A DNA stretch of 64,000 nucleotides from Wenzhouxiangella sediminis (lineage in GTDB: Bacteria > Pseudomonadota > Gammaproteobacteria > Xanthomonadales > Wenzhouxiangellaceae). Of the stretch, positions 14,627-63,713 are shown one piece after another (the stretch's first letter is position 1; each line of letters opens with the position of its first letter). Made by a program: the position numbers and the translations under genes. The notes below the pieces were generated by a model. It saw only the letters and a program-made list of their open reading frames with translations. It did not search any database and was not told the origin of the DNA. Location: NCBI RefSeq assembly GCF_003410055.1, contig NZ_QUZK01000016.1, forward strand, positions 1 through 64,000, in the 5' to 3' direction.

Positions 14627-16066
14627 ATGGGGCATCGAACCATGCCGCCGACGAGAATCCTGATCGCCGCGCTGGGCTTGATCGGCCCGCAGGTACACGC
14701 CGCCGACTACCCGGTCGGCCCCGGGCAGGCCTACACCTCGATTTCCGACGTGCCCTGGGAAAGCCTGGGCGCCGGTGATCGCGTGCTGATCCACCACCGC
14801 CCGGCACCCTACGCGGAAAAAATCCTCATCGGCGTCAGCGGCAGCCCGGCCGACCCGATCATCGTGCGCGGCCTGCCGGGCCCGAACGGCGAACGGCCGG
14901 TGATCGACGGTCGCAATGCCACCACGCGCCAGGCGCTCGACTACTGGGGCGAAGAGCGCGGCGTGATCAAGGTGGGCGGCTCCAGCGTGCCGCCGGACAA
15001 CACGCCGAGCCATATCGTGATCGAGGGCCTGGAGATCCGCTCCGCCCATCCCGACCACTCCTTCACCGACGATTCGGGCCAGCCGGGCACCTACACGGAC
15101 AACGCCGCTTCCATTTACGTGGAGAAGGCCAACGACCTGACCATCCGCGACTGCGTCATCCACGACTCCGGCAACGGCATCTTCGTCGGCGCCTTCAACG
15201 GCGAGACCCGAAACATCCTGATCGCCGGCAATCACATTCACGACAACGGCATCGAGGGCAGCATCTTCGAGCACAACACCTATACCGAGGCCATCGACAT
15301 CACCTACGAATTCAACCGGTTCGGTCCCTTACGAGCGGGCGCCGGCGGCAATAACCTGAAGGACCGCTCGGCGGGCCTGGTCGTGCGCTACAACTGGATC
15401 GACAGCGGCAACCGGCAACTCGACCTGGTCGACGGCGGCAACGCGGTCGCCGGCGATCCCGGCTACGACCGCACGTTCGTCTACGGCAACTTGCTGATCG
15501 AACGCGACGGTGAAGGCAACAGCCAGGTGCTCCACTACGGCGGCGACAGCGGCAACACGGCGAACTACCGGAAAGGACGATTGCACTTCTTCCACAACAC
15601 CGTCGTCTCCGCGCGTACGGGCAACACCACCCTGATGCGGCTTTCGACCAACGACGAGAGCGCCGAGCTGCGCAACAACGCCGTGTTCGTCACGGTCGCC
15701 GGCTCCCACCTGGCGCTGCTCGACGACACTGGCGCGGCCGACCTGTCGGGCAACTGGCTCAAGCAGGGATGGCAGGACTCGCACGGCGCCCTTTCGGGCA
15801 GCGTCAGCCTCGGCGCCGGCAACATCGACGGCACGGATCCCGGCTTCGTCGATTTCAACGCCGAGGACTACCAGCCGGCAAACGGATCACCGCTGCTGGA
15901 CGGCGCCGTGGGCCTGCACGCCGAAGCCGGCGGCCATCCGGTCGACCGCCAGTACCGACGGCACCTGCAGTCCATCCCCCGCGACACCAGCGCCCCGATG
16001 GACATCGGCGCGCTGACGCCGGCTCTCGAGCCGGTCTTCCGGGATCGATTCGAAGTGCTGCCCTGA
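14627..16066 (+). CDS. Secreted right-handed beta-helix protein with F-x-D-x-F-E tail
   Basis: A 479-residue secreted protein. A signal peptide (LIAALGLIGPQVHA, cleavage before ADY) is followed by an N-terminal strand region and a parallel beta-helix with repeating short units such as NDLTIRDCVIHDSGNGIFVG and NILIAGNHIHDN. It resembles polysaccharide lyase or DUF1565-type beta-helix proteins, but no catalytic residues can be assigned. The ATG at 14627 is preceded by AAGGGG at good spacing. The last residues, VFRDRFEVLP, carry a short motif shared with other secreted proteins in this window. Likely periplasmic or cell-surface, perhaps polysaccharide-binding or degrading. Confidence 0.85.
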   Translation: MGHRTMPPTRILIAALGLIGPQVHAADYPVGPGQAYTSISDVPWESLGAGDRVLIHHRPAPYAEKILIGVSGSPADPIIVRGLPGPNGERPVIDGRNATTRQALDYWGEERGVIKVGGSSVPPDNTPSHIVIEGLEIRSAHPDHSFTDDSGQPGTYTDNAASIYVEKANDLTIRDCVIHDSGNGIFVGAFNGETRNILIAGNHIHDNGIEGSIFEHNTYTEAIDITYEFNRFGPLRAGAGGNNLKDRSAGLVVRYNWIDSGNRQLDLVDGGNAVAGDPGYDRTFVYGNLLIERDGEGNSQVLHYGGDSGNTANYRKGRLHFFHNTVVSARTGNTTLMRLSTNDESAELRNNAVFVTVAGSHLALLDDTGAADLSGNWLKQGWQDSHGALSGSVSLGAGNIDGTDPGFVDFNAEDYQPANGSPLLDGAVGLHAEAGGHPVDRQYRRHLQSIPRDTSAPMDIGALTPALEPVFRDRFEVLP

Positions 16067-16076
16067 CCCCCCAAAC

Positions 16077-16418
16077 TCAACCGGCGCCGAGCGACCAGAC
16101 CACCAGCGCCGCCGTCGCGGCCAGGATGGCGGTCAGCAGGAACCAGGCCGAGGGCCGCGCGAAGTTGAGCGTGAAGCCGACGCCGAATCTTTTTTCCACC
16201 CACATGGCGGGATCGGCGGGGTTGAAGTAAATCAGCCCGAGCTTCCAGGCCGAGTCGGGTGAGCGGTCGCCCTGGGCCGGCTCGCCGGGCCGGGCGAAGC
16301 GGCCGGTTGCCAGCATCCACACGGGCAACAGCAGCACGGCAACGAGGCTGCCGATGTTGACGGCCAGGCCGACCGGGCCCGTAATCCAGCGATATGGCGA
16401 TGGCGAAGAGGACATCAA
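16077..16418 (-). CDS. DUF5808 membrane protein
   Basis: A 113-residue protein with two hydrophobic helices (about residues 15-38 and 88-110) around a conserved central segment, NPADPAMWVEKRFGVGFTLN, that is the DUF5808 signature. It lies six bases downstream of a GntR-family repressor gene in the same direction, an arrangement common for YtrA-type regulators and the membrane proteins they control. Function unknown. Its end is convergent with the beta-helix gene, with about ten bases between the stops. Confidence 0.82.
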   Translation of the reverse strand: MMSSSPSPYRWITGPVGLAVNIGSLVAVLLLPVWMLATGRFARPGEPAQGDRSPDSAWKLGLIYFNPADPAMWVEKRFGVGFTLNFARPSAWFLLTAILAATAALVVWSLGAG

Positions 16419-16424
16419 AAGGGG

Positions 16425-16841
16425 TCATGAAGAATTCCTCCGGTCGTCGATCATTGCCTCGATGGATGCATCCAGCGCGCGACGTTCCACGCCCAGTGCC
16501 TCGTAGCGGGCCCGCAGATTACGCAGTTCCTCGGTGAATTGCCGCGCCAGCGCCTCTGCGTGGCGGGCGTCCAGCTCCGGTGTCGACCGTTCCAGTACCA
16601 CGGTTCCGGCACGCCGCTTCAGCGCCAGCCAGCCCTCGGCCTCGAGCGTGCGATACGCCTGGGCGACGGTGTTGAAGTGCACGCCGAGATCCCTCGCCAG
16701 CGCCCTCGAAGACGGAAGGGCGTTTCCCGGCGACAACTCGCCGCTGACCAGCAGCCGGCGCAGGCCGTTGACGATCTGCTGGACGATGGGCACGTCGGAA
16801 TCGACGTCGACGGCCAGTGCAGGCGCTTGTACATTAACCAT
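16425..16841 (-). CDS. GntR-family transcriptional regulator, YtrA type
   Basis: A 138-residue repressor. Residues about 15-80 form the GntR winged helix (PIVQQIVNGLRRLLVSGEL, PSSRALARDLGVHFNTVAQA, LEAEGW). The remaining C-terminal part is short and helical, as in the YtrA subgroup, with no aminotransferase or FadR domain. I chose the ATG at 16841 because it begins just before the domain; the longer frame to 17102 is not supported and would cover the operator and the neighbouring promoter region. Its start codon lies inside a perfect palindrome, so it very probably represses itself and the DUF5808 gene. Confidence 0.9.
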   Translation of the reverse strand: MVNVQAPALAVDVDSDVPIVQQIVNGLRRLLVSGELSPGNALPSSRALARDLGVHFNTVAQAYRTLEAEGWLALKRRAGTVVLERSTPELDARHAEALARQFTEELRNLRARYEALGVERRALDASIEAMIDDRRNSS

Positions 16842-16847
16842 GTACAA
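16827..16847. promoter_or_regulatory. Palindromic operator over the GntR start codon
   Basis: A perfect inverted repeat, TTGTACAT-TAACC-ATGTACAA (8-base arms, 5-base spacer). The start codon of the GntR gene (16839-16841) lies within it. Such symmetric GTAC-centred sites are typical operators of YtrA-type GntR repressors. A site at the start codon would block both promoter clearance and expression. Confidence 0.8.
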
Positions 16848-16981
16848 ATTATGGCGCCGAACACCCGGCCCCGTCAATGTATAGCCAAACCATACAAACA
16901 AACCCCGATCTTTTTGCGCACAATCCGAACAATCGCCCGGGCCGTTCCAACCTTTTGGAGCGCGGGCGCATCCTTTCCCAC

Positions 16982-17521
16982 ATGCAGACCGCAGCCATGG
17001 CCATCGACAGCGAAGCCGACGACGACGCGCCCCTGGTGGATGCCGCGCAGTCCGGCGATACGGAAGCGTTCGCCGCGCTCTATCGCCGTCACGCCGGCGC
17101 ACTGATGCCGATGCTCTGGCGCCTGTCGGGCGGCGACCGGCCGCTGGCCGAGGACTGGCTCCAGGACGCCTTCGTGCAAGCCTGGCGCCGCTTGGACCAG
17201 CTGCGCGACCGGAAGGCCTTCGCCGGCTGGCTGAGGCGGCTGGCCGCCAACGTGGCCCTGGCCGACCGCCGGCGCGGTCGCCTGGCCACGGTCGACGCCG
17301 AGGTCGATCCCGGCGCGCCGGAACCGCCCTGGCCGGCGGCCGACCTGGACCTGGAACGCGCCATCGCCGCCCTGCCCGACCGGGCTCGCCAGGTGCTGGT
17401 GCTGTTTCACCTCTCCGACCTCGGCCATGCCGAGATCGCCGAGCTGCTGGGCGTGGACATCGGCACCTCGAAGGCGCAACTCCACCGCGCCCGAAAGCTC
17501 ATCAAGGAGGCACTGCAATGA
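16982..17521 (+). CDS. ECF-type RNA polymerase sigma factor
   Basis: A 179-residue sigma-70 family protein of the extracytoplasmic function type. Region 2 is AAQSGDTEAFAALYRRH through WLQDAFVQAWRRL; region 4 is ALPDRARQVLVLFHLSDLGHAEIAELLGVDIGTSKAQLHRARKL in part, with the helix-turn-helix. The ATG at 16982 is preferred; an upstream in-frame ATG at 16877 would add an atypical 35-residue leader. It is the first gene of an operon with an anti-sigma-like protein (4-base overlap) and a DUF4097 protein, so it probably responds to an envelope signal. Confidence 0.92.
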   Translation: MQTAAMAIDSEADDDAPLVDAAQSGDTEAFAALYRRHAGALMPMLWRLSGGDRPLAEDWLQDAFVQAWRRLDQLRDRKAFAGWLRRLAANVALADRRRGRLATVDAEVDPGAPEPPWPAADLDLERAIAALPDRARQVLVLFHLSDLGHAEIAELLGVDIGTSKAQLHRARKLIKEALQ

Positions 17522-17973
17522 CCATCGACGACCGCGAACTGGATCGCCGCCTCGAGGCGCTCACGCGCGAGGTCGACGCGGACGAGGCCCTGTGGCCGGG
17601 TATCGAGCGGCGCCTGCGGCCGACCCGCCGCTGGCCGGCGATCTCGGCCGCCGTGGCCGCGGTTGTCTTCGGGGTGATGCTCGCCTCGCTTGCACTGTTC
17701 GACCGCGAAACGTCCGACGGCCCGCGATTCGTCCAGGACGACACCGAAGCCATGCGCAGCGCGGCGGCGCAGAGCTTCGCGGTTTCGCGGGCAGAGGCCG
17801 CTGCACCGCTCGAGCGGGCCTGGCAGGACAACCAGGCCGCCATCGAACAGCTCGAGCAAGCGCTCCAGAGCGACCCCGACAACACGCTGCTGCTCGAATT
17901 TCTCAGCGAGGCGCGCCTCAGGCAGGCGCGCCTGATTCAACGAGGGCTATTCCCACCGGAAAGGAGCATATGA
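17518..17973 (+). CDS. Predicted anti-sigma factor, single-pass membrane protein
   Basis: A 151-residue protein with an acidic/basic cytoplasmic N-terminus (about 40 residues), one transmembrane helix (about residues 41-60) and an extracytoplasmic part rich in Gln, Glu and Ala that is likely helical. It has no zinc-binding HxxxCxxC motif. The ATG overlaps the sigma factor stop by four bases, which is the usual arrangement for a cognate anti-sigma factor; the assignment rests on this context and topology rather than on sequence similarity. Confidence 0.75.
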   Translation: MTIDDRELDRRLEALTREVDADEALWPGIERRLRPTRRWPAISAAVAAVVFGVMLASLALFDRETSDGPRFVQDDTEAMRSAAAQSFAVSRAEAAAPLERAWQDNQAAIEQLEQALQSDPDNTLLLEFLSEARLRQARLIQRGLFPPERSI

Positions 17974-17975
17974 CC

Positions 17976-18875
17976 ATGAAAACCATCGCAACCACATTTC
18001 TTGCCGCCGGCTTGCTGGCGGCCGCCGGCCCGACATGGGCCGAGGACGTCCGGGAAGTCCGCGACGCCGCACCCGATGCGCGCATCGAGTTCTCGGCCGT
18101 GACCGGCGACTTCACCGTCATCGGCCACGAAGCCGCAGAATTCGTCCTCGAGGGCCGACTCGGCGACGATGTCGAAGAGCTGGTGATCGAGGGCGACTCG
18201 GATAACTGGCGCATCGAACTCGAACCGGTCGAAGGCAATTTCGAATGGGGATCGAACCATCGCTCCTCGGAATTGACCCTGTATGTGCCGCGCGGCAGCG
18301 ACCTCGAACTCCAGACCGTCAGCGGTGACATGACCGTCCGCGACCTGTCCGGTCCCGCGCTCGAGGTGGAATCGGTCAGCGGCGACCTCGAACTGAGCGC
18401 GATCGACTCGGCTGAAATCGACATCCAGACCGTCAGCGGCGACGTCACGACCGAGGCGGTCACCGGCGAGGAAAGTGACTACGAGTCGGTCAGCGGCGAC
18501 CTCAGCATCCGGGGGGCGCGCGGCCGCATCGATGTCGAGGCCGTCAGCGGCCACGTCGATCTCGAGGCCACCGAGGTCAGCGACTTCGAGAGCGAAACGG
18601 TCTCAGGCGACCTGAAGGCCCGCCTGTCGCCGAGGCCGGGGGCGACGCTGAGCCTGTCGAGCCACAGCGGCTCGCTCGAGCTGCTCCTGGCCGTGAGCGA
18701 CACGCCCCGCATCCGCGCCGAAACCTACTCTGGCCGGATCGAAAGCGATTTCGGCGAAGTCGAGGACGCCGGTTTCGGCCCGGGCGCCTCGCTTCGGGTC
18801 GACGGCGGATCGGGCGCGGTGGAGGTCGAAGCCCAGACCTTCAGCGGCAGCCTCACCATCCGGCGCGCCGACTGA
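17976..18875 (+). CDS. Secreted DUF4097-family beta-repeat protein
   Basis: A 299-residue exported protein. A signal peptide (FLAAGLLAAAGPTWA) precedes a region of about ten short repeats with a V-S-G-D core (TVSGDMTV, SVSGDLEL, TVSGDVTT, SVSGDLSI, TVSGDLKA, TFSGSLTI and others) spaced 19-23 residues apart. This is the DUF4097 pattern, predicted to form a beta-solenoid. The ribosome site AAGGAG at 17961 favours the ATG at 17976; an ATG at 17970 overlaps the anti-sigma stop. It is third in the sigma/anti-sigma operon and may be the sensed or controlled envelope component. Confidence 0.88.
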   Translation: MKTIATTFLAAGLLAAAGPTWAEDVREVRDAAPDARIEFSAVTGDFTVIGHEAAEFVLEGRLGDDVEELVIEGDSDNWRIELEPVEGNFEWGSNHRSSELTLYVPRGSDLELQTVSGDMTVRDLSGPALEVESVSGDLELSAIDSAEIDIQTVSGDVTTEAVTGEESDYESVSGDLSIRGARGRIDVEAVSGHVDLEATEVSDFESETVSGDLKARLSPRPGATLSLSSHSGSLELLLAVSDTPRIRAETYSGRIESDFGEVEDAGFGPGASLRVDGGSGAVEVEAQTFSGSLTIRRAD

Positions 18876-18916
18876 CCGAGACACCGGCGGACAAGCCGTC
18901 CGCGAAATTGCTTGAC

Positions 18917-18942
18917 GGCCGGCCCCGGCAGCGGGGCCGGCC
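18917..18942. terminator. Strong bidirectional hairpin between convergent genes
   Basis: A perfect 11-base stem, GGCCGGCCCCG paired with CGGGGCCGGCC, around the loop GCAG. It lies between the convergent ends of the DUF4097 gene and the GGDEF gene. No long T run follows on either strand, so it may stop transcription weakly or stabilise both 3' ends. Confidence 0.6.
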
Positions 18943-18946
18943 CTAT

Positions 18947-19969
18947 TCAATCCGAAACGATCCGGTCGCGACCTTCCGCCTTGGCCCGGTAGAGCCGCTG
19001 GTCGGCCGATCGAAGCAAGGTGTCGAGATCGGCACCGTCGCCGCCCACGGTGGCGATGCCCACGCTCACCGTATGCGGGCTGTCTGCCGCCTCCTCGCAC
19101 CACCGCGCGGGCTGCTCGCGCCAGGCCAGGCGGAGCCGTTCGGCCACCTGCCTGGCCACCTCCTTGGTGGTCCCCGGCAGCAAGGCAAGAAACTCCTCGC
19201 CGCCGAATCGGCACAGGAAATCCTCGTCGCGAAGTTCCGAGCGGAGTCGGTGCGCGAATGCCACCAGCGCCCGGTCGCCCGCCGCGTGCCCATGAGCGTC
19301 GTTGATGTCCTTGAAGTGGTCAAGATCCATCAACAGGATCGACAGCGCCCGGCCGTCGTGACTGGCCGCGGCCCGCAAGCGTTCGAAGGTCTCTTCGAGG
19401 AGATTGCGGTTGGGCAACCCCGTCAGCGTGTCCGTGGCGGCCATCTCGCGCAGGCGACGCTCGCTGCGCTCACGGCCGCGTTCATAGACGTGCGCCAGGG
19501 CCAATCCGAGCATCCCCGCCAGCGAGAAGTTGGCCGCCCCCGTGAATGACGAGCTTTCGGCCGGCATGCCGAAGCGATACCAGGCCAGCAAGGCCGCGCC
19601 CGCGAAGCTTGCCAGGGAGACGGCCAGTCCCAGCCGGCTTCCGAGAAGAAAATGCAGGACCAGCGGGAGCAGAATCGGCCAGACGAAGACCGAGGGCGAG
19701 GCCCCCGGCATGGCGAGGATCGACAGCATGGCCCCGGTCCAGGGAATCACGTAGGCCACGGCCCAGGCCCGGAACCGCGGGGTGCGACCGATGATGGGCA
19801 ACAGGATCAGCGAGTAGGCGACGAACGCGAACTCGACCACCGCCGCCGGCCAGAGACCGCGATAGAGGTTGAGAACCGCGAAGAGCAATCCGCCCAGGGC
19901 GGTGACGACCATCATCGCCCGCAGTACGGTGCGACGTTGGCGGTCACCCCCTGACGTCGTGATGGTCAT
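18947..19969 (-). CDS. Membrane-anchored diguanylate cyclase (GGDEF)
   Basis: A 340-residue protein. Residues about 10-165 hold five or six transmembrane helices of a sensor-type membrane domain; residues about 185-338 form a GGDEF domain with TLTGLPNR, DLDHFKDIND and the active site RFGGEEF. It should make cyclic di-GMP at the inner membrane. No RxxD inhibitory site was seen before the active site. The start at 19969 has AAGGAAG upstream; a 14-codon longer start at 20011 is possible. Monocistronic, convergent with the DUF4097 operon. Confidence 0.9.
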   Translation of the reverse strand: MTITTSGGDRQRRTVLRAMMVVTALGGLLFAVLNLYRGLWPAAVVEFAFVAYSLILLPIIGRTPRFRAWAVAYVIPWTGAMLSILAMPGASPSVFVWPILLPLVLHFLLGSRLGLAVSLASFAGAALLAWYRFGMPAESSSFTGAANFSLAGMLGLALAHVYERGRERSERRLREMAATDTLTGLPNRNLLEETFERLRAAASHDGRALSILLMDLDHFKDINDAHGHAAGDRALVAFAHRLRSELRDEDFLCRFGGEEFLALLPGTTKEVARQVAERLRLAWREQPARWCEEAADSPHTVSVGIATVGGDGADLDTLLRSADQRLYRAKAEGRDRIVSD

Positions 19970-20055
19970 TGCCTGGATTTCTTCCTTGGCATGGCGAGCG
20001 TTTGCAAGCATGGGTCGAAGCCTATCAGCCCGCCCGAAAGCGCCGGGATATCCGC

Positions 20056-20529
20056 TTAAGCCGGCCAGCTGGCGTAAGGATATCGGCTCAGGCAGGCATT
20101 GTAGTAGCGATGGTCGCCGCTGACTTCTTCACCTGCCCAGCTCGGCCGCTCGAGGGCTTCGTCGGCGCGGTCGAGTTCGACTTCCGCGAGCACCAGTCCG
20201 GCATTGGCGCCTTCGAAGACATCCACCTCCCAGACGTGACCGGCATGGGGAACACGGTAACGCCGCTTGACGATCGGCGTGCCCTCGCACAGTTCCCCGA
20301 GCATTGTGCGCGCATCGACTTCCGGAATGTCGTATTCGTACTCACTGCGCGAGATCCCAGCGCTCGCACCCTTGATCGTCAGCTTTGCTCCACTTCCGGC
20401 CAGGCGCACCCGAACCGTGCAGTGCTCTTGCGCTGCAAGATAACCCTGAACCATCTCCGTGCCGGCGTCGGCCTGCTCTCGCCAGGCATCGTCGACAACC
20501 AGGAACTTGCGTTCGATTTCCGTAGCCAT
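20056..20529 (-). CDS. CYTH-domain protein
   Basis: A 157-residue protein of the CYTH (triphosphate tunnel metalloenzyme) family. The N-terminal metal/phosphate motif is EIERKF, and the alternating charged strands VRVRLAG, LTIKGA, YEYDIP, KRRYRV, WEVDVF and LAEVELD line the tunnel. Members of this size hydrolyse inorganic triphosphate or are of unknown role. The ATG at 20529 has GAGAGGAA upstream. It is divergent from the lipoprotein gene at 20659. Confidence 0.88.
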   Translation of the reverse strand: MATEIERKFLVVDDAWREQADAGTEMVQGYLAAQEHCTVRVRLAGSGAKLTIKGASAGISRSEYEYDIPEVDARTMLGELCEGTPIVKRRYRVPHAGHVWEVDVFEGANAGLVLAEVELDRADEALERPSWAGEEVSGDHRYYNACLSRYPYASWPA

Positions 20530-20658
20530 GATTCCTCTCCCGACAGACGCCCGAGCCATTCGAAACTACCATCTCGTGCAAGCCGTCACCAGGCGGCGCC
20601 TTGCTCCCGCCTTGACGGTGCAAGGCTAGACTTCGGTTCGGTAAACCGGAGCAAGCCA

Positions 20659-21546
20659 ATGCACTCTTCTCGCGAGTTGATCATCGCCGTGCTGCTGACC
20701 AGCTGCCTGCTCACGGTCGGTTGCGCCGGCTTTCCCGAACCGCGAGAAGGTCTGTCGTTCGAGGACGGCCTCAGTGCCGAGCAGTGGTTCGAGCGAATGC
20801 TGCAGGCCCATGGCGGTGACATCTCGAGCGACCCCAGGGACTTCAACCTGGCCATGACCGGTGAATGGTCGGGGCTGATCCAGCGAATCCAGCCGCTGGT
20901 CACCGACAGCGGCTACCGGATATCGGCCGAGGAACGATATCGACCTTCCGACAACCTGTACGTGACCCGTCACCGCGGACCCCAGGGCATCAAGACGGTG
21001 TGGCGTCGCGGACAGGAAATCCGGGTCTGGTACGACGGCGAACCGGAAACCGACGCGCGAGTGCTGGCGGCCACCGCCATGACCACCGACGCCTTCGAAC
21101 TGTTCCACTTCGGACCGTCCTTCCTGGCACGTCGCGCTGTCGACATGACCCGGCTGGCCGAAGGCCGGGAAGACGGGCGGAGCTATCCGCGAATCCTGGT
21201 CGAGATTCGACCGGGCTTCGGCGAAGCCGAGTCGGACCGCGTCGTCGCCTGGATCGATCCGGGAACTCACCGACTCTTCCGAGTGCACATCACGCTCAAC
21301 GGCTTCCGGACGACGCAGGGCGCCCACGTCGACACCACCTTTTCGGACTACGTCCAGATGGGCGGATACTGGTTCCCGAGCCGGTTCGAGGAGCGCGTGC
21401 GCGGCCCGATCCGCATCCACGCCCATGATTGGCAGATCACGGGGAGAGACACCGACCGGAACTGGCGAGTCGAGGATGTGGCCGGCCCCGAGTTTACGGG
21501 CCCTGCCGCGCCGACCGCTTCGTCAACGGCAGACACGGACAACTGA
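20659..21546 (+). CDS. Putative outer-membrane lipoprotein with LolA-like beta fold
   Basis: A 295-residue protein. A lipoprotein signal peptide ends at the lipobox VGC (about residue 22), followed by AGFPEP. The mature part is rich in alternating beta strands and Arg/Trp, as in the LolA/LppX-like fold (for example IKTVWRRGQEIRVWYDG and DYVQMGGYWFP). I do not recognise the exact family. The last 15 residues are low-complexity Ala/Ser/Thr. It is divergent from the CYTH gene and convergent with the carboxypeptidase gene. Role unknown; lipid binding in the envelope is a guess from the fold. Confidence 0.65.
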   Translation: MHSSRELIIAVLLTSCLLTVGCAGFPEPREGLSFEDGLSAEQWFERMLQAHGGDISSDPRDFNLAMTGEWSGLIQRIQPLVTDSGYRISAEERYRPSDNLYVTRHRGPQGIKTVWRRGQEIRVWYDGEPETDARVLAATAMTTDAFELFHFGPSFLARRAVDMTRLAEGREDGRSYPRILVEIRPGFGEAESDRVVAWIDPGTHRLFRVHITLNGFRTTQGAHVDTTFSDYVQMGGYWFPSRFEERVRGPIRIHAHDWQITGRDTDRNWRVEDVAGPEFTGPAAPTASSTADTDN

Positions 21547-21587
21547 CCGGGGCAAGACCGCTTCATTGCCAGACAGAGTAACCCGGC

Positions 21588-35537: not shown

Positions 35538-37253
35538 CTAATGCGCGTCGAATGCGTCCCTGAACAAGCGATCATTACCCTCGAAGGCACCCGGATCGAA
35601 CGGGCCCGCCACGTCCGGAAGCGGCGTATCGTAGGGGCGCTCCTCGCCAAGGAGGTCGAGGGGCGCATAGATCGGGTTGGCGGGGCAGCGATCCACCGCG
35701 CCGGCCAGATCCGCGATATCAAGACGATAGTCCCCCGCCCCCGGATCGATGAAGCCCGGCGTCGTGGAAACGGCCGTCGCGACGTCTTCATTCACGCTCG
35801 CCGCTTCGTGTATAAAGCCGCACTCCACAGTGGGTTCGTTCGAGGCATCGAAATCGGCAACAGGGACTCCACCCGGCGCCTGGACGATGCTGCGACCGAT
35901 GAACGCCTCGCCGAGCGAGTTCAGCTCGAAAACGCGCGTGGCATTGGGGTTGTCGACAATCGTGCTGGCCAGCACTTCCAGCGAGGTGTCGAGTGGCGGA
36001 CTGGAGGAAGGATCGGACTGGTAGAACACGCTCGCGCCGTCGTTGCCGACGACCAGGGCGTTCTCGAAGCGCGCCGTGGCATCCTGGCTTTGCAGGAACA
36101 ACACACTGCCCTGACTCGTCGCAATATTGTCCAGAACGCGCGTGCGTTCGACCGAGAGTGTCGCCGTGCCCACCGAAAACGCACCGCCGAGCGGCGCCTC
36201 GTTCGCCTCGATGGCCGAGCAGGCCTGCGCGCCGGCACAGCGCGGCCGTGTGCCTTCCACGATGACCTCGGCCCCGTTGCGGACCTGGATACCGCCACCC
36301 AGAGAGCCCGACACATTGAATCCCACCAACGCGTTGCGCACGGTCAAGCGGGTATCCGCGCCCACGGCCATGATGCCGCCACCCTGGACAGACGCCTCGT
36401 TCTCGATGATCAGCGGGCGAGGATCCAGACCGGTCAGGCCTTCACCGATGACGATGTCGGTCGGCCCCTGGGTCGAGTCGAGATAGATGCCACCGCCGCC
36501 GAAGGTCGCAGTGTTGTAGCCGACGTTGTAGAAAAGCCCGGCCAGTCCGGTAGCGCCCGAATTGATGAAGCCGCTACAACCGTTGGCGTAGATGCCGCCG
36601 CCTTGCGACGCCGTGTTGTTGGAAATGCCCGTGGCCGAGTAGATCTCCAGCCGCGCCCCGTCTCCGCAATAGATTCCACCGCCTTCCTGCGACACGGCAT
36701 TGTCGATGACGGCAACGTTCTCGCCGAGAATCAGGGTCGCGCCCAGGCTGTCGCCTTCCACCCGAACTCCCGCGCCCCGGATGGCGCCGGTTACGTTCTG
36801 GATGGTTACGTTTCGCAGGTTGACGTCCGTGCCGGACACATAGAGCCCGGAAGCCGTCAGTCCGGATGCATTCTGGATCGTGAGATTCGCCAGGGTGACG
36901 CGCTTGCGTTCGATGGTGTTGCGAACATCGATAACCTGGGTGTTCGCCCCGCCGCCGTCGATCACGGTGTTGTTGTTGGTGTCCGGAAGCGCCGAACTGC
37001 ATTCGGCGTATCCACCCTCCATCAGGAACGCCTTCTCGAAGGCTTCGACCGAAACGCCGTTGTAGGTCCCCGAACGGGCGACCCGGATCACGTAGAGATC
37101 ACCTTCGGGAACGTTCAGGGGCACGGCGTCGACCGCATCCTGAATCGAACTGAAGTCGCAATCGCCGGTTCCGCCCACGGTGATCAAGGCAACCGCAGCG
37201 CTGAGCGGCTGGGTCAGTGCGATGCAAAGAAGGAAAAACGCATATCGAATCAT
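35538..37253 (-). CDS. Secreted beta-helix protein with F-x-D-x-F-D tail
   Basis: A 571-residue exported protein. A signal peptide (FFLLCIALTQPLSAAVA) precedes a parallel beta-helix with units such as RVTLANLTIQNASGLTASG and RLEIYSATGISNNTASQGGG, similar to polymorphic outer-membrane repeats. Several cysteines (CDFSSIQDAV, AECSSALP, CAGAQACSA) may form disulfides. There is no C-terminal helix; instead the protein ends LFRDAFDAH, the short tail shared with other secreted proteins here. The ATG at 37253 lies about 30 bases after a TATACTTTC element. Likely surface-exposed or released; substrate unknown. Confidence 0.85.
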   Translation of the reverse strand: MIRYAFFLLCIALTQPLSAAVALITVGGTGDCDFSSIQDAVDAVPLNVPEGDLYVIRVARSGTYNGVSVEAFEKAFLMEGGYAECSSALPDTNNNTVIDGGGANTQVIDVRNTIERKRVTLANLTIQNASGLTASGLYVSGTDVNLRNVTIQNVTGAIRGAGVRVEGDSLGATLILGENVAVIDNAVSQEGGGIYCGDGARLEIYSATGISNNTASQGGGIYANGCSGFINSGATGLAGLFYNVGYNTATFGGGGIYLDSTQGPTDIVIGEGLTGLDPRPLIIENEASVQGGGIMAVGADTRLTVRNALVGFNVSGSLGGGIQVRNGAEVIVEGTRPRCAGAQACSAIEANEAPLGGAFSVGTATLSVERTRVLDNIATSQGSVLFLQSQDATARFENALVVGNDGASVFYQSDPSSSPPLDTSLEVLASTIVDNPNATRVFELNSLGEAFIGRSIVQAPGGVPVADFDASNEPTVECGFIHEAASVNEDVATAVSTTPGFIDPGAGDYRLDIADLAGAVDRCPANPIYAPLDLLGEERPYDTPLPDVAGPFDPGAFEGNDRLFRDAFDAH

Positions 37254-44973: not shown

Positions 44974-46158
44974 CTACTGCTCGAAGCGATCGCTGAACAC
45001 ACTCTGCCCCAGGAGCGTCAGCCATTCATTGACGGCCAGGAAACTGGAGCCGTCATATCCCCCCGGTGCCACCATGTGCACCCTGCCGTCGGCAAGAATG
45101 GGTACCAAACTGCTGATATTGCTGGCCGCGGTGAGTTTTGCCGGAAGACTGTGCCAGGATTCGGTCGGCACCTCGAAAAGCCAGGTTTCGGTCCGTGACT
45201 CGGTGCCATCGCCAGTCGGATCACCGCCGGTAAAGACCACTACGCTGGGAGAAGAGTATTCGCCTCCGGGGCTGACCGTGGATGGCACTCCCGCGCCGTG
45301 TCGCCCGACAGGACCGGCAGGATAGTTCGGCCCCGCCGTCCAGGTGATACTGGTCGGATCGTTCGGGTCGATCGCGCCAATCCAGGTTTCGCTCATCTGG
45401 ATGCTGCCAGCCTGGTTGTATCCCCCAGTAACCACGATTCGCCCTTCGACGATCCCGCCACGGAGGCCCGCGACCAGCGTTCCCGGTTTGGGCGTTGCCT
45501 GCACCCAGGTATCGGTTTCCGTGTCGTAAACCTGGACAGCATCCGTATCCGCAGAGCCGGTATACCCGCCGATAACGTAGATGTAACGATCGTCATGAAC
45601 GCCAATGGCATAGTCGCCCACGGCCTGGGGAAGCGAGGCACCGGTCGTCCATGTATCCGCAACGATGTCGTAGATCTGAAGGAGCGCCGTAGGAAAGAAC
45701 GATGTGGTATACCCACCGGGCACGAAAATGCGCTGACCGATGCGGACCGCGGAAACTTGCTGCACAGCATTGGTCATGGGAGTCAAATCCGACCAGGTCG
45801 CGGCATCCACGTCGTACCGTGATACATTACTAACTGTGATTCCCGACGAGTTGTTGCCTCCGATCACGTAGACGAAGCCCGGGACACTCTCCGTACTGTA
45901 AGACACCACAGCGTGCCCCCAACGCGCGGAATCCATGACCGTGCGAGATTCCCACCCATTATTCGGCCACTCCTGGACCACACCTCGCAGTTGGCCCTCC
46001 GCCTGGACGACCGCAAGCGGCGATTGCAGAGCCGATCCCACGTGCGCCGAAGGTGTGGCCTTCACTCCGGCCTGGGCAACTGCATAACCCGACCATGCGG
46101 AAAGAAGAAAGACGAGCGAAATCACAGCCGTTTTGAACGGCTTCGTTGTCGATACCAT
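44974..46158 (-). CDS. Secreted kelch-repeat beta-propeller with F-x-D-x-F-E tail
   Basis: A 394-residue exported protein. A signal peptide (AVISLVFLLSAWSGYAVAQA) is followed by six kelch-like blades, each with a double-glycine strand (VYVIGGNN, IFVPGGYT, IYVIGGYT, IVVTGGYN, VVVFTGGD, HMVAPGGY) and a later Trp. It should form a six-bladed beta-propeller. There is no anchor helix; the protein ends QSVFSDRFEQ, the shared short tail. AAGGGAA at nine bases supports the ATG at 46158. Probably a surface or secreted binding protein; ligand unknown. Confidence 0.85.
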   Translation of the reverse strand: MVSTTKPFKTAVISLVFLLSAWSGYAVAQAGVKATPSAHVGSALQSPLAVVQAEGQLRGVVQEWPNNGWESRTVMDSARWGHAVVSYSTESVPGFVYVIGGNNSSGITVSNVSRYDVDAATWSDLTPMTNAVQQVSAVRIGQRIFVPGGYTTSFFPTALLQIYDIVADTWTTGASLPQAVGDYAIGVHDDRYIYVIGGYTGSADTDAVQVYDTETDTWVQATPKPGTLVAGLRGGIVEGRIVVTGGYNQAGSIQMSETWIGAIDPNDPTSITWTAGPNYPAGPVGRHGAGVPSTVSPGGEYSSPSVVVFTGGDPTGDGTESRTETWLFEVPTESWHSLPAKLTAASNISSLVPILADGRVHMVAPGGYDGSSFLAVNEWLTLLGQSVFSDRFEQ

Positions 46159-51749: not shown

Positions 51750-51757
51750 CGCCGCCC

Positions 51758-52654: not shown

Positions 52655-53209
52655 TCAGGGTGTTTCAAACCGGTCGCCGAACACCTCATCAGTGGCTGGA
52701 CGAAACACGAAATTGTCGAGCACCAGCGCCGCGCTGCCGACCGATGCACCAACGATGCGAAGCTCGTCGATCGGCCCTCCGAAGCCGGGTTCCAGGGTCT
52801 GCCAGGTCAGATCGCTCCGGCTCAAGCCGGTGACCGAACCGACCTCGGCACCCCCGTTCAACCCGATCAGGTCGACGGCGTCACTTTCAGCACCCGAGGA
52901 ACGGTGGTCCACGCTGACGAAGAAGAACGGTTCCCCGTCGGCCCGGCGAATCGAGAACTCGTCACCAACCGCGATGGCGACCTGCCAGCCGACCCAAAGG
53001 GCCTGGTCGGGGTTGCCCTGCGCATCGATACCCCAGGCGCCACCACTGATATTCTCGAACTCGAAGCCGGCCTCGCTATTGACGACTCCCTCGGCGAGCT
53101 GGCCTGTGGACAGCGCATCGAAGGTCAGCGTCTGCGCAGCGGCATTCGCGGCCAGCAGACCCGTGAGCAGCATTGCCGGCAGCCCCTTCAGCATCCAGTT
53201 CCTGAACAT
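52655..53209 (-). CDS. Secreted protein with F-x-D-x-F-E tail
   Basis: A 184-residue exported protein. A signal peptide (LPAMLLTGLLAANAAAQ) precedes a beta-rich domain that resembles PEP-CTERM-type galactose-binding-like modules (LTFDALSTGQLAEGVV, FFFVSVDHRSSGAESDAVDLIGL in part and IDELRIVGASVGSAALVLDNFVF in part). There is no C-terminal helix; it ends EVFGDRFETP, the short tail shared with other secreted proteins here. Function unknown; surface or matrix carbohydrate binding is a guess. It lies between the RIO kinase and the metzincin genes. Confidence 0.75.
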   Translation of the reverse strand: MFRNWMLKGLPAMLLTGLLAANAAAQTLTFDALSTGQLAEGVVNSEAGFEFENISGGAWGIDAQGNPDQALWVGWQVAIAVGDEFSIRRADGEPFFFVSVDHRSSGAESDAVDLIGLNGGAEVGSVTGLSRSDLTWQTLEPGFGGPIDELRIVGASVGSAALVLDNFVFRPATDEVFGDRFETP

Positions 53210-53481: not shown

Positions 53482-54636
53482 ATGAATGCATCACACCGAT
53501 CTCTGGCATCCGGTCTCGCACTAGCCGCCTTTGTGCTTACCCCATGGCTCGCTTTCGCTGCCGGATCGACGGGAATCATCTACCAGGATGGATTCGACCC
53601 CTGCGAGGTGGGCCTCGATGTGGACAATGATCGCCTGGATGCCTGTCTGGAGCGGGCACTGGGCACCGATCCGTTTCTGGCCGACACCGACGGCGATTCC
53701 ATCAACGACGGCGATGAGGTGCTGGGTACGCTGGACGGACTGGACTTGCCCGCGCTGGGAGCCGATCCCCTGGTGAAGAACATCCTCCTCGAATACGACT
53801 GGTTTGAAGACGACCTGGACGTGCCTCTCCACGCGCACCGACCAACCCAGGCAATGATCGATCAGGTCGCGGCCGCATTTGCTGCAGCACCGGTCACCAA
53901 CCCTGACGGGTCAACGGGCATCGTGGTCATTCAGGATTTTGGCCAGGGCGGCGTCTTTACCGGAGGCAACCTCATCGACGACTCCGACGGGGTACTGGTC
54001 GGAGGCGTCCTTGATTCAGAGTTCCAGGACTACAAGTCCAATCACTTTGCCACCAACCGCCGGGGATATTTTCACTATGTTCTTCTACCGCACCGATACA
54101 ACACCGATAGCAACAGCTCAGGCCAGGCGGAACTGATCGGCGACGACATGATCGTTTCCCTGTACGAGTACTACGACAATGTGACGTATATCTCCAACAC
54201 CATCGTGCACGAGTTGGGCCACAACCTCGGCTTGCTCCACGGTGGCAATGTGAGCTGTAACTACAAACCCAACTACAACTCGGTCATGAACTACCGGTAT
54301 CAGTTCCCAGGCGTGGATGATAATTGCACCGTCGCCGGCGACGGCGTACTGGATTACTCCAGCGGCGCCTACATTACGCTGGACGAAAGCAATCTGGACG
54401 AAAATGCCGGTATCTGTGGCGATGTGCCCATCGACTGGAACGAAGACGGCCAGATCCAGACCGGCGTAACGGCCGATATCAATCCCAACGGCAATAACGC
54501 GTGTTTCTCGACGATCTCGAACCTGCACGATCATGACGACTGGGGCGCGATCGTCTTCTACGGCCTGTCCAGCGCCAACCGCCGAACTGCCGAGATCATC
54601 GATTGCCAGTCCTCGCCCATGGAAGCGCAGGACTAA
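53482..54636 (+). CDS. Secreted metzincin-like zinc metalloprotease with calcium-binding segment
   Basis: A 384-residue exported protease. A signal peptide (LALAAFVLTPWLAFA) is followed by GIIYQDGFD, the same motif that other secreted proteins here carry at the C-terminus. Next come Asp-rich TSP3-like calcium-binding loops (DVDNDRLDAC, DTDGDSINDGDE). The catalytic site is HELGHNLGLLH, with zinc ligands H243, H247 and H253 and general base E244. A Met-turn SVMNY follows 20 residues later. It is a metzincin. The ATG at 53482 is chosen because it begins a proper signal peptide. A strong hairpin follows the stop. Likely degrades extracellular protein. Confidence 0.87.
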   Translation: MNASHRSLASGLALAAFVLTPWLAFAAGSTGIIYQDGFDPCEVGLDVDNDRLDACLERALGTDPFLADTDGDSINDGDEVLGTLDGLDLPALGADPLVKNILLEYDWFEDDLDVPLHAHRPTQAMIDQVAAAFAAAPVTNPDGSTGIVVIQDFGQGGVFTGGNLIDDSDGVLVGGVLDSEFQDYKSNHFATNRRGYFHYVLLPHRYNTDSNSSGQAELIGDDMIVSLYEYYDNVTYISNTIVHELGHNLGLLHGGNVSCNYKPNYNSVMNYRYQFPGVDDNCTVAGDGVLDYSSGAYITLDESNLDENAGICGDVPIDWNEDGQIQTGVTADINPNGNNACFSTISNLHDHDDWGAIVFYGLSSANRRTAEIIDCQSSPMEAQD

Positions 54637-54747: not shown

Positions 54748-54814
54748 CAACGACACGGCCACCGGAATAATCAACCGGGAATCAAGCCTGCTTCTCTCTC
54801 CCGGCGATGGGCCG

Positions 54815-57925: not shown

Positions 57926-58020
57926 GGCACGGCACGCCTGCAACCCGACGCCCACGACGACACCCACGACAAGGAGAAGCAGGCATAACCCGGACACCGA
58001 AACGCGCCGAGGGCCTTGGC

Positions 58021-58329
58021 TGCCTCGTGGTCGAATACATCGGCAACCATGCCCCCTGCCGGGAGGCCCCGGAGGGCGTTGAACACTGAAAAGACGCCCT
58101 GCCGGCCGGCGGCAACATGGACGGAATCGAACCCTGGCACAGCGGCCTGTTGATCGCTTCCCAGGAAGACCAGGCCATCTGGTTCGTTTGCGATGTTGAG
58201 GCAGAAATTCTCATCCGCACCCCCGGTCGCCCGGCGGACATCGGCCTGGACGAATCCGGGGGGCGGATCGCCGTGCCCTACATCGCACTCGATCGAGTCG
58301 ATATCTGGAACCTTCCCGACCAGCCCTGA
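58021..58329 (+). pseudogene. Remnant of a beta-propeller/SMP-30-like protein C-terminus
   Basis: An open segment from ATG 58117 to 58329 (70 codons) has the look of the end of an SMP-30/gluconolactonase-like propeller: LIASQEDQAIWFV, PGRPADIGLDESGGRI and AVPYIALDRVDIW. Reading the same frame upstream continues in protein-like fashion (ALPAGGN before the ATG), but there is an in-frame TGA at 58087-58089, and the rest of the propeller is missing. No ribosome site stands before 58117. It is probably the decayed 3' end of a lost gene; a short expressed protein is possible. Confidence 0.45.
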
Positions 58330-58489
58330 GAAGTTCCTGCATCTCCTCGCTTACCGCTGATTCTCTCGTGTCTACTCCAAGGCTCGAAAAAATCCCTGAG
58401 GCTGTAGTTTCCCGGAGTCGATCGACGAGATACACTAAGTCGCGCGGTCCGGACGGGCCCATTGCGAAACATTTCACAAGGGAGGGAAA

Positions 58490-59269
58490 ATGTCACGACT
58501 ATTCACGCTGCTTGCCGGGCCTATCCTGGCTTTTTCGAGCCTTTTCATGGCCAGCTCCACGCTGGCGCAGCCCTACACGATCACCCAGGACACCGCAGAT
58601 CTGACGCCGCTTACTGCGCCGACGGCGGTCTCATTGGCCGACGATCAGACAGCGGGCCCATTCAACATCGGCTTCGACTTCAACTTTTTCGGTACGACAT
58701 ACTCCGAATTCTGGATTTCCAGTAACGGTTTCATCGCCTTCGAAAACACCTCGAACGGCTGTTGTTCAGGTCAGCTCATTCCGAATTCAGGCCAACCGAA
58801 CAACATGATCGCTGCCTTCTATGAGGACTATGATCCACCGGAAGGCGGCACCGTCAGTTATTCGCTCGAAGGAAACATCGTTGGCGCTAGAAGTCTGATC
58901 ATCGAATTCGACCAGATCTACCCCTGGAACGGACCACCGAAGACACCCAGCACCTGGCAGATCAAGCTCCAGGAATGCACCAATATCATCGAGATTCACT
59001 GCGAATCCTGCGTCAGCGATGGCGGCAGCCACACTCAAGGCATCGAGAACGCAGCCGGGGACGATGCCTATTTCGTCGCCGGTCGCAATTCCACGGACTT
59101 CAGTCTGACCGACGATCAGGTCATCTTCGATCCTGACCTGGTGACCTGCCAGGCGGAAACGCCTGAACCTGCGCTCCCCGTTCCCACCCTGGGCACGCTC
59201 AGCGCCTTGCTCATGACCCTCGTCCTGTTGATCATCGGGACCATCGTGCTGCGGCGCTCTGCCGCCTGA
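58490..59269 (+). CDS. Secreted nidogen-like protein with C-terminal sorting helix
   Basis: A 259-residue exported protein. A signal peptide (LAFSSLFMASSTLAQ) is followed by a beta-rich region like nidogen-type or PEP-CTERM domains (GFDFNFFGTTYSEFWISSNG and AAFYEDYDPPEGG), with several cysteines. It ends PVPTLGTLSALLMTLVLLIIG and LRRSAA, an IPTL-CTERM-like signal. AAGGGAGGG before the ATG is a strong ribosome site. A hairpin follows the stop. Likely a cell-surface or matrix protein. Confidence 0.85.
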   Translation: MSRLFTLLAGPILAFSSLFMASSTLAQPYTITQDTADLTPLTAPTAVSLADDQTAGPFNIGFDFNFFGTTYSEFWISSNGFIAFENTSNGCCSGQLIPNSGQPNNMIAAFYEDYDPPEGGTVSYSLEGNIVGARSLIIEFDQIYPWNGPPKTPSTWQIKLQECTNIIEIHCESCVSDGGSHTQGIENAAGDDAYFVAGRNSTDFSLTDDQVIFDPDLVTCQAETPEPALPVPTLGTLSALLMTLVLLIIGTIVLRRSAA

Positions 59270-59318
59270 TTCAGCTTTCGGGTTCACGAGAAGCCACTGA
59301 TGGCGTAACACCAGACAC

Positions 59319-59343
59319 CCCGGGCCGTTGAATTCGGCCCGGG
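59319..59343 (+). terminator. Hairpin after the nidogen-like gene
   Basis: A perfect eight-base stem, CCCGGGCC with GGCCCGGG, around nine bases, followed by ATTTCCC. It lies 50 bases past the stop at 59269. Confidence 0.6.
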
Positions 59344-59537
59344 ATTTCCCGGCCGGGCCGGATTGCTCTGCCCCCGATCGGCCGCACGACAGTCCGCGAC
59401 TCCCGGGATGCGTGGGCTTTTTCAAAGCCCATCGCGCCGAATCTTTGCAAGCCCCTGGTTTTAATTGCCTTTTTCTTTTCTCTCCGATTCCTCGCCGCCA
59501 GCCGTCGGAAAAAAATCCGAGCGAGCGCGGAAAATAT

Positions 59538-59566
59538 TTGTCTTTTGGCTCAGTTTCGTGTATAAA
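59538..59566 (+). promoter_or_regulatory. Sigma-70 promoter of the elongation factor G gene
   Basis: TTGTCT (59538-59543) and TATAAA (59561-59566) are separated by exactly 17 bases. The surrounding 100 bases are unusually AT-rich for this genome. A transcript would begin near 59573 and have a leader of about 170 bases before fusA. The 473-base gap 59270-59742 contains this promoter, the hairpin at 59319 and the leader. Confidence 0.75.
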
Positions 59567-59591
59567 GCGCGTGCAAAATAGCTTCCCCCCC

Positions 59592-59620
59592 ACGGCGCCC
59601 CCAGCGGTGAGCGCCGTTTT
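59592..59620 (+). terminator. Attenuator-like hairpin in the fusA leader
   Basis: A seven-base stem, ACGGCGC with GCGCCGT, around a 12-base loop is followed directly by TTTT and GTG. It lies inside the predicted leader, between the promoter and the start codon. A second hairpin, CGCCTT-CGGC-AAGGCG, follows at about 59661-59676. This could be a conditional terminator. Confidence 0.5.
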
Positions 59621-59742
59621 GTGCGTATTCAGGTTTAAGCGGGGCGAATGTGCCCCCATATCGCCTTCGGCAAGGCGGTATCGGGCAGCTTTCCAGCGCA
59701 CGGCAGCTTTTCCACTAACCCACCACTGGCAAGTATTGAATC

Positions 59743-61836
<2,094 letters not shown>

Positions 61837-61862
61837 GCACCAGCCTCGAGGCTGAGAACCAG

Positions 61863-61899
61863 GGCCCCGGCGGTGGAAGCTGCCGGGGCCTTTACATTT
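61863..61899 (+). terminator. Rho-independent terminator of fusA
   Basis: A perfect nine-base stem, GGCCCCGGC with GCCGGGGCC, around ten bases, followed by TTTACATTT. It begins 26 bases after the fusA stop. Confidence 0.85.
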
Positions 61900-61926
61900 C
61901 GATGAACGAGATGTCGTCGCCGCGGA

Positions 61927-62381
61927 TCATCCAGCTCCTTCGCCGGACTCCGAAGGCATGACAACCATATTGAAGCGGTCGGAGCAGTTCGTCCTCCCCG
62001 CCCCAAGAGCGGCCATGCGCGCGTTGAGCATGGAGACTTCGCGATCCGTCAGCGATCGGTCGGCCTCGAGCGCCAGTTCAGCCGATCCGTCAGCCGAAAA
62101 GACCACATCGCCGGCCAGCGAAACCTGCTCCTCCGCACGCTCGTAGAACGATACGACGAACTCCGAACCCCGGTCATTTCCGACCCAGCCGACGAAATTC
62201 GGATACGCCCCTGCGCCTCGACCTGTCCGAGCTGTCTCGACTCCTCTTCCGTCAACGGCTCGTGCCACTGTATGCCAACTCGGCGACACGGGTTCAACGC
62301 ATCGGAGCACCGCGCCGAGCCATCCGCCCCCGGGGGTTCTGCGCAGTTGCCGCAGCCGCCGGTCATATGACGATATGGCAT
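61927..62381 (-). pseudogene. Frameshifted hypothetical gene
   Basis: Two minus-strand frames join into one plausible protein. The first, from an ATG near 62381, reads protein-like with ALNPCRRVGIQWHEPLTEEE and LGQVEAQG. The second continues with YPNFVGWVGNDRGSEFVVSF, FYERAEEQVSLAGDVVFSAD and LNARMAALGAG up to the stop at 61927. The join lies near 62203-62212, at a GGGGC run, and needs one added or two lost bases. I know no family for it. It may be a true frameshift, a programmed slip or a sequencing error. It is divergent from the beta-propeller gene. Confidence 0.4.
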
Positions 62382-62402
62382 GATGGGATCGGTGACGAAT
62401 GA

Positions 62403-63713
62403 ATGGATCACATGATGCTTGTATCAACGGCCCGGCCCGAAAATGCGCAAGGCCGGTCAGTTTTTTCCCGCCGTTCGATTATCACGCCGCTGCTGACGGC
62501 CCTGCTGGTCGCAGCGGGGGCTGCGCAGGCGCAGCAGTCGCTCGACTGGTCGCTGGAGCCGTTTGCCGGCAACGCCGTTCGCCTGTTCGGCGCGGACTCC
62601 GACTTCAACAATGGTGTCTGGGTAGCAGGCCACTCGTCGCTGGCGGAATCTCCGTACTCGTTCCGCAATTTCATCGCTCGCTGGGACGGCCTGGAGTGGG
62701 TCGTGACCCCGGTGCCCCAACCGGCCGAAGCCGTGGACGACAGGGACCACAGCCTGCGATCGATTGCCGCGCTCGGTCCCGATGACGCGATCGCCGTGGG
62801 GGCACACGACAAGCTCGACGCCAACGTGTCGGTCCCGCAATCCATGCGCTGGAACGGCACCGACTGGCAAGTTCTGGAAGTACCGGACGAAATCGCCGGC
62901 AGCGGCAACGGTAGCGGAGCGTTCGACGATGTTGCGCGCACCGGTGATACCGCCTGGGCGGTCGGCAGCTTTGTGGGCGCCGGCCCGAGCGGCCCCGACA
63001 TGCCCATCGCTCGATTTTTTGCGACCCGACTCGACGGCGATCAATGGCAGGCATTTGTTCCGCCACTGTACGACGGCATTCAGGATCAGGAGCTAGCCCG
63101 CTATTTCGCCAGGACGGTGGCCGGGGCCTCCGACGACGACGTCTGGATCGGCGGCCGCGTCGAGCAGACCGGCGAAGGCCCGGACGGTCCCTTGCTCGGA
63201 CACTGGAACGGCTCGCAGTGGCAGTGGTCCGATATCTGGCCGTTGTTCGACAGCGGGATAGCGGACATCTCGGACATTCTGGCGCTTGCCTCCGATAACG
63301 TCTGGGCGGTCGGGGTCGAAACCCTGGTCGAAGGAACGACGACCCGCGATGTTGCCGTCGTGCTCCACTGGGACGGTGCGCAGTGGTCGCGGGTCGCCGT
63401 CCCGGATGAGCCGGACCGCAACGTCATCCTGCACACCGTCACGGCGCGCTCGGCGTCGGAAATCTACGCCGCCGGGGCTGCCTTCCCTGACGATGGGCCG
63501 CTGGAGGCCTATCTGCTGCGTTACGACGGCGAAGACTGGGCCACCGTTCCCGACGTCGAGCTCGCCGACGGTTCGCAGTTCTTCGCTGCCGCAATCAGCC
63601 CGGTCGGCCAATTGTGGCTGACCGGGCGCGCCAACGAACTCTCGCTGCCCGGCCTGGCGCAGCGCGCCTGGCTCGAAGGCATCATCCTGTTCCGCGACAG
63701 CTTCGGGGATTGA
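62403..63713 (+). CDS. Secreted seven-bladed beta-propeller with F-x-D-x-F tail
   Basis: A 436-residue exported protein. After a signal peptide (PLLTALLVAAGAAQAQ) come about seven repeats, each with a strand like VWVAGHSS, AIAVGAHD, AWAVGSF, VWIGGRV, VWAVGVE or IYAAGAA and a following (R/H)WDGxxW unit such as FIARWDGLEW and VLHWDGAQW. These should be the blades of a propeller. No anchor helix is present; it ends IILFRDSFGD, a degenerate form of the shared tail. The start is 62403, with an alternative ATG at 62412. Ligand unknown. Confidence 0.8.
   Translation: MDHMMLVSTARPENAQGRSVFSRRSIITPLLTALLVAAGAAQAQQSLDWSLEPFAGNAVRLFGADSDFNNGVWVAGHSSLAESPYSFRNFIARWDGLEWVVTPVPQPAEAVDDRDHSLRSIAALGPDDAIAVGAHDKLDANVSVPQSMRWNGTDWQVLEVPDEIAGSGNGSGAFDDVARTGDTAWAVGSFVGAGPSGPDMPIARFFATRLDGDQWQAFVPPLYDGIQDQELARYFARTVAGASDDDVWIGGRVEQTGEGPDGPLLGHWNGSQWQWSDIWPLFDSGIADISDILALASDNVWAVGVETLVEGTTTRDVAVVLHWDGAQWSRVAVPDEPDRNVILHTVTARSASEIYAAGAAFPDDGPLEAYLLRYDGEDWATVPDVELADGSQFFAAAISPVGQLWLTGRANELSLPGLAQRAWLEGIILFRDSFGD

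Follow-up and report, generated by a model that had tools for sequence, protein, structure and literature searches.

A short C-terminal tail on unrelated secreted proteins of Wenzhouxiangella sediminis and its usual co-occurrence with a second type II secretion system

C-terminal sorting signals of secreted proteins are known in several forms: MYXO-CTERM occupies a 'choice-of-anchor' position at the C-terminus, and the C-terminal domain of the type IX secretion system (T9SS) targets folded proteins from their C-terminus. The GlyGly-CTERM signal, the partner of rhombosortase, is reported on many unrelated secreted proteins, substrates of the type II secretion system (T2SS) among them, and its many-to-one pairing was found by phyletic profile (PMC3237569, PMC13393428); PEP-CTERM/exosortase and LPXTG/sortase signals are described in the same terminal position (PMC3237569). 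For the T2SS itself, the passages cited here describe the choice of cargo as unresolved and lacking a common sequence signal (PMC10128026, PMC11981180, PMC7949064), the substrates as having no common sequence feature (PMC10128026), and the known signals as structural and composite, with flexible loops or an immunoglobulin (Ig) fold (PMC7949064, PMC12369372). In this article we describe a short tail, F-x-D-x-F-(E/D/G), which a sequence-only reading had noticed on at least five unrelated secreted proteins encoded in the first 64,000 nucleotides of contig NZ_QUZK01000016.1 of Wenzhouxiangella sediminis (this whole stretch is called the window), a species whose genus is placed in Chromatiales by the NCBI taxonomy.

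The tail is similar to GlyGly-CTERM in its position and in its distribution over unrelated proteins, and the two share some protein families, which elsewhere bear other tails. Its architecture is different: it is not tripartite as PEP-CTERM, LPXTG and MYXO-CTERM signals are, and the 38 tails kept from the genome of the window (G000) lack both the transmembrane helix and the basic cluster that GlyGly-CTERM, PEP-CTERM and LPXTG-type signals have past the motif, being followed by 1-9 residues only. The candidate partner is different as well, since here it would be a secretion machine while that of GlyGly-CTERM is a rhomboid protease. The T9SS C-terminal domain (Por_Secre_tail, PF18962) is a 75-position domain, unlike the short tail, and PF18962 had no match in this genome. 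The known T2SS signals also differ from the tail; nevertheless the tailed proteins would be similar to the T2SS substrates Pel3 and VesB as Sec-exported folded cargo, from which the PDZ domain of GspC can select a subset according to the reports cited (PMC7949064, PMC12369372).

The frequency of the motif was determined in an 864 kb sample of the genome (the window and 40 further 20 kb stretches, 733 genes in all), genes and signal peptides being called by home-made scripts. F.D.F[EDG] occurred 23 times in the last 20 residues of the proteins and 8 times in all remaining sequence of 249,888 residues, and the motif-bearing ends belonged to 17 of the 218 predicted secreted proteins, to none of the 182 membrane proteins and to 6 of the 333 'cytoplasmic' ones. 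The sequence-only reading had proposed a comparison with shuffled ends and another with cytoplasmic proteins; the motif proved to be enriched at secreted C-termini (shuffled secreted ends gave a mean of 0.19 and a maximum of 3 over 2000 shuffles, against the 17 real ones), and it was not equally frequent in the cytoplasmic set. Four of the six 'cytoplasmic' ends seem to result from wrong start calls or from locus edges: three have a signal-peptide-like start further upstream, and the frame of the fourth reaches the locus edge, its orthologues being longer and furnished with a signal peptide. The remaining two are apparently chance matches: a protein which we take from its sequence to be an aspartokinase, and the product of window 7666-8703. 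When secreted C-termini were searched for gapped triples with no preset motif, F-x-D-x-F also ranked first (20/202 ends versus 5/4133 internal windows).

In the whole genome the DNA pattern F.D[GR]F[ED] gave 57 sites, while the reversed pattern gave 3. Within 20 residues of a stop lay 41 of the 57; of the other 16, located inside frames or close to a start, many stand in antisense- or chance-looking frames. After the aspartokinase and two short frames had been dropped, 38 near-stop sites were kept as tails. The Sec or Tat signal peptide expected of T2SS substrates was predicted on 29/38 of these when a stricter home-made score was applied (309/707 sample genes pass it) and on 35/38 with a lenient one (439/707 pass); since the lenient score passes so many sample genes, the corresponding count of '36 of 41' says little alone. 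Taken together, the tail is real, extends much wider than the window and is not a product of chance.

The 38 tails of this genome have the form [ILVM]-F-x-D-[RG]-F-[ED], with R in 37 and G in one and with a final D in one, and in 30 of them only 1-3 residues follow the motif. Their codons vary (Asp is encoded by GAC in 20 and GAT in 18, and four Arg codons are used), 34 distinct 18-mers were counted among them, and the 60 bases upstream and downstream have mean pairwise identities of 34% and 29%. Because codon choice is free and the flanking DNA is on average unrelated, a repeated DNA element cannot account for the tail, and selection appears to act at the protein level, on the tail alone. Asn can stand for Asp, as in IFKNGFE and VFANGFE of the nuclease loci discussed below. 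When the nuclease domain was folded in silico together with its tail, the model was of low quality (mean predicted local distance difference test score, pLDDT, 55.7; residues 224-248, including the tail, below 50), hence it tells nothing firm. The clearest internal uses of the motif are three proteins which continue for about 90-140 residues to their end (L121 on contig C29 of this genome, site 3409; L172 in G296; L191 in G291), the motif being preceded by repeats that we presume to be DUF11-like. Near the mature N-terminus, at or soon after the signal peptide, the motif stands at window 53575-53598 and in L091, L093, L144 and L182; one protein of this kind is presumably sulfatase-modifying-like.

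The survey was extended to further genomes, for which the order and family groups (f2, f174, f178) are those of the genome tools used. In three genomes of other families, 16/20, 18/22 and 21/25 of the sites read were located within 20 residues of a stop (all sites were read in the first two genomes and 25/35 in the third). All tails kept from them have G instead of R, and 26/52 end exactly at E; F-x-D-G-F-E is the tail form in other families of the order. Over 200 genomes of the order the number of motif sites per genome varied from 0 to 84, while 275 genomes of the class had mostly 0-5, with a maximum of 14 outside the order. The signal is thus spread over much of the order. Candidate tails outside it were rejected in three of the genomes with higher counts, G239, G054 and G161: of 31 sites 30 were read, and the 8 that lay at most 16 residues from a stop included just 2 whose frame had a signal-peptide call and formed no coherent set.

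The distribution of the tail follows that of a second type II secretion set, which we call T2SS-A. In G000 it comprises gspC-gspD-gspE and gspF, located outside the window on contig C38 at about 183504-189172 (locus L309, 12105-17773), with matches to T2SSC and PDZ, secretin, GspE and GspF. A GspD-like secretin match was obtained in 34/34 genomes tested, and a tree of 40 GspD proteins separated clades A and B with support 100/100. Clade B was present in 13/13 tail-rich and 11/11 tail-poor genomes placed; in clade A every one of the 13 tail-rich genomes was represented by one GspD, as were the tail-poor G365 and G348. Clade A also includes, with a long branch, the second GspD of G263, which we take to be that of Xcs, the second T2SS of Xanthomonas; the Xcs-type GspD is nearest to clade A in the tree, but its match to the GspD-A profile is at E 1e-127 to 1e-157, against 1e-190 and better within clade A. 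In the clade A loci, the content of which was scored for gspC, gspE and gspF only, gspC adjoins gspD in 15/15, and the loci include gspE in 14/15 and gspF in 7/15.

The GspD-A profile, built from 15 genomes of which 13 had been picked as tail-rich, gave bimodal scores when run on these 200 genomes, a few of them falling in between (10 genomes, median 0.5 motif sites). At least 8 motif sites above control were found in 80/94 genomes with GspD-A versus 7/106 without it (p = 2.8e-32); contig-end fragments of G390, G408, G443, G425 and G439 were scored as GspD-A by eye, and excluding them the figures are 77/89 versus 10/111. The association was also seen within family f178 (4/5 versus 1/36, that one, G458, being chance in the loci read) and family f2 (1/1 versus 0/41), and by genus, 29 having both GspD-A and tails, 32 neither, 6 GspD-A only and 2 tails only. 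The phyletic profiling suggested by the sequence-only reading, run for this one machine, points therefore to the second T2SS, whereas a strict co-occurrence was not borne out. G372 (genus g268) was the sole one of the 42 f2 genomes surveyed to combine GspD-A with many motif sites (68), and it lends itself to a natural comparison with its relatives.

Natural controls were provided by the orthologues of a tailed nuclease of the Endonuclease_1 family (G000, contig C14, locus L045; the Pfam assignment was made on a Dokdonella relative). Among the best 80 of a larger number of matching loci, the closest of which was 'Wenzhouxiangella sp. isolate KhS_metabat.34' (93%), linker and tail were present on 11 and absent from 69. 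The tailed ones came from Wenzhouxiangella, Dokdonella (5), Aquimonas and four records labelled just Lysobacteraceae or Lysobacterales; the untailed ones, including those of Xanthomonas, Stenotrophomonas, Lysobacter and Luteimonas, mostly stop directly after the last common stretch, and a few have other extensions. By this comparison the tail is an add-on. A genome search for GspD-A covered 37 of the nuclease loci (the 11 tailed, 10 of them searchable, and 26 of the 69 untailed) and detected it at E <= 1e-251 in 9/10 genomes of tailed nucleases versus 0/26 of untailed ones, where the best match was 1.7e-178 (p = 1.1e-7). In the nuclease of the nearest named relative (L199) the tail reads IFSDRLEAAP, the second Phe being replaced by Leu.

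The families of the tailed proteins were examined on 76 sequences, 38 from the genome of the window (including two with looser tails encoded in the window) and 38 from three relatives, short proteins being excluded. NCBIfam (E <= 0.001, some matches lying below curated cut-offs) identified choice-of-anchor Q (8 members), O, B and D (1 each), M36 peptidase models of the rhombosortase- (3), myxosortase- (3) and T9SS-dependent (1) kinds and ExeM-type nucleases (2), while Pfam matches included beta-helix, DUF11, kelch, subtilase, M14, M28 and others. The tailed families include ones that carry different terminal sorting signals in relatives elsewhere. Altogether 56 NCBIfam and 71 Pfam families were matched, with no model of the tail among the 25 listed of each, and no published name for it was found in the literature searched by motif and by topic. 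The sequence-only reading had left the choice between a sorting, anchoring or recognition tag and a module border: the C-terminal placement on unrelated folds, the conservation, the presence or absence among orthologues and the families strongly support that the tail would be a sorting or recognition tag, while the module border did not stand save for a few internal copies.

Within the window the five tailed proteins and their quoted ends were reproduced by translation, each protein having a signal-peptide-like start. Three of the tails are exact F-x-D-R-F-E: VFRDRFEVLP of the beta-helix protein 14627-16066 (16034..16063, forward strand, motif from 16037), VFSDRFEQ of the kelch protein 44974-46158 (44977..45000, reverse strand; Kelch matches) and VFGDRFETP of the small secreted protein 52655-53209 (52658..52684, reverse strand), which had no family match in Pfam or NCBIfam. 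The two others are looser and were left out of the strict motif counts: LFRDAFDAH of the secreted protein 35538-37253 (35541..35567, reverse strand, FRDAFD from 35564), which has a weak Chlam_PMP match under the Pfam cut-off, and ILFRDSFGD of the secreted protein 62403-63713 (63684..63710, forward strand, FRDSFG from 63690). In the metzincin 53482-54636, a protein with weak Peptidase_M10/Reprolysin matches under cut-off, translation likewise showed the N-terminal copy IIYQDGFD directly behind the signal peptide (53575..53598, forward strand). Further tailed genes are clustered just beyond the window end at 67900-73500 of contig C8 of the same genome (L135), one of them a short frame with no signal-peptide call.

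The best single explanation, to which we assign about an even chance, is that the tail may direct proteins to T2SS-A as a linear signal which GspC/GspD would read. Its more specific form is put forward tentatively, as falling a little short of an even chance: the six-residue peptide might be a linear, transplantable terminal address label of the T2SS, read by the PDZ domain of the duplicated GspC/GspD. The tailed proteins would leave the cytoplasm via an ordinary signal peptide, as predicted from their sequences, and after folding in the periplasm they would display an end with [ILVM]-F-x-[DN]-[RG]-F-[ED]; T2SS-A would recognise this end, most likely via the PDZ domain of GspC and the N-domains of GspD, and would pass the protein through the outer membrane. 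We infer both that T2SS-A reads the tail and that the cell surface or the outside is the destination.

According to the literature cited here, just a subset of T2SS substrates in Vibrio and Dickeya require the PDZ domain of EpsC/OutC (PMC12369372). T2SSC and PDZ matches (PDZ E <= 0.01) were obtained in 15/15 GspC-A examined. No PDZ match occurred in 112 frames of at least 140 residues upstream of 24 gspD-B, although these frames need not include GspC-B; 24 of these frames match GspM type b and 3 match GspC weakly. PDZ domains bind peptide ends, and this property, the PDZ domain of GspC-A and the reported role for a subset together make GspC-A the natural candidate reader. Canonical PDZ ligands end in a hydrophobic residue, which the tails mostly do not have.

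Several observations weigh against the tail being a T2SS-A signal read in this way. In the genomes read the tails end in E or in E and 1-12 further residues, mostly closing with E itself or with a short polar stretch or Pro, and thus differ from canonical PDZ ligands. An end-binding mode would also not accommodate the few proteins in which the motif stands close to the mature N-terminus. Nor is the pairing of the tail with T2SS-A strict, exceptions, ten of which were read in part, being present both ways. Real tails with no detected GspD-A were seen in G378 (5/6 loci read), G347 (3-4/6), G433 (3/6) and G333, a 90% complete draft (6/6). In G458, which also has no detected GspD-A, 0/6 loci read are tails and the sites are chance, and the fragmented drafts G399 and G404 are tail-rich with no detected GspD-A, their sites lying outside the loci read. 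In the other direction, 30/69 wider-pattern sites were read in the GspD-A genomes G365, G348, G363, G407 and G438, and none of these ends a signal-peptide frame, although several short frames do end near the motif; the GspC-A of the tail-poor G365 and G348 still carry PDZ domains. No association was present in family f174 (1/5 with GspD-A versus 3/25 without). Furthermore, the genomes are related, hence the p-values overstate the number of independent events, a single candidate machine was profiled, and the T2SS-A genes are unlinked to the tailed ones: one tailed gene was called in 40 secretin loci of 11-20 kb, where gene calls were poor for some genomes. T2SS-A and the tails usually co-occur, yet each can exist without the other.

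Such exceptions are of use to the main rival explanation, namely that the tail might, in the manner of dockerins, hold already secreted proteins to a receptor on the outer membrane or in the matrix, either T2SS performing the export and T2SS-A being a mere companion of lifestyle. Tails with no detected GspD-A speak for such a surface-retention tag, the N-terminal copies in the window metzincin, L091, L093, L144 and L182 suit binding better than a strictly C-terminal signal, and choice-of-anchor families are among the carriers. We nevertheless regard it as rather unlikely, because the association with T2SS-A within f178, f2 and the nuclease orthologues would have to be a side effect; no receptor candidate turned up, and no profile search for one was made. 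The same shortness, C-terminal position and sharing by unrelated folds would also be in accordance with a processing or turnover signal, by which a periplasmic or surface protease trims or degrades the tailed protein, but 201/218 secreted proteins of the sample have no tail, and a degradation tag kept on about 40 proteins across an order is hard to explain, which makes this possibility improbable.

It is still less credible that the motif is a module border or remnant, inherited as the initial strand of a beta-sandwich domain that has since been lost. L121, L172 and L191, which continue past the motif, speak for this idea, but the 38 tails of this genome stop soon after it, their synonymous codons vary freely, as though selection acted on the tail alone, and no domain start of the F.D.FE.G[DNST]..W type was present among the loci collected at that stage. 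A LamG-like domain start (presumably DGFESGD..W) was tried as the source of the motif and rejected, no such frame being found among the same loci. An artefact of chance or composition, finally, has been refuted: it can account for the two chance-looking cytoplasmic matches and for the 16 strict sites which are not C-terminal, but not for the excess over the reversed pattern and over the shuffled ends, nor for the recurrence of the tail in several families.

If the address label read by T2SS-A is true, the cargo of a T2SS could be listed from sequence alone, and it would be explained why two secretins are kept. If the reader is another receptor, the tail would still be a C-terminal sorting signal that has no helix and is shared by several families of an order. 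It should be emphasized that a motif which tracks one of two T2SS versions, together with the tailed and untailed orthologues, makes the cargo question testable in environmental bacteria.

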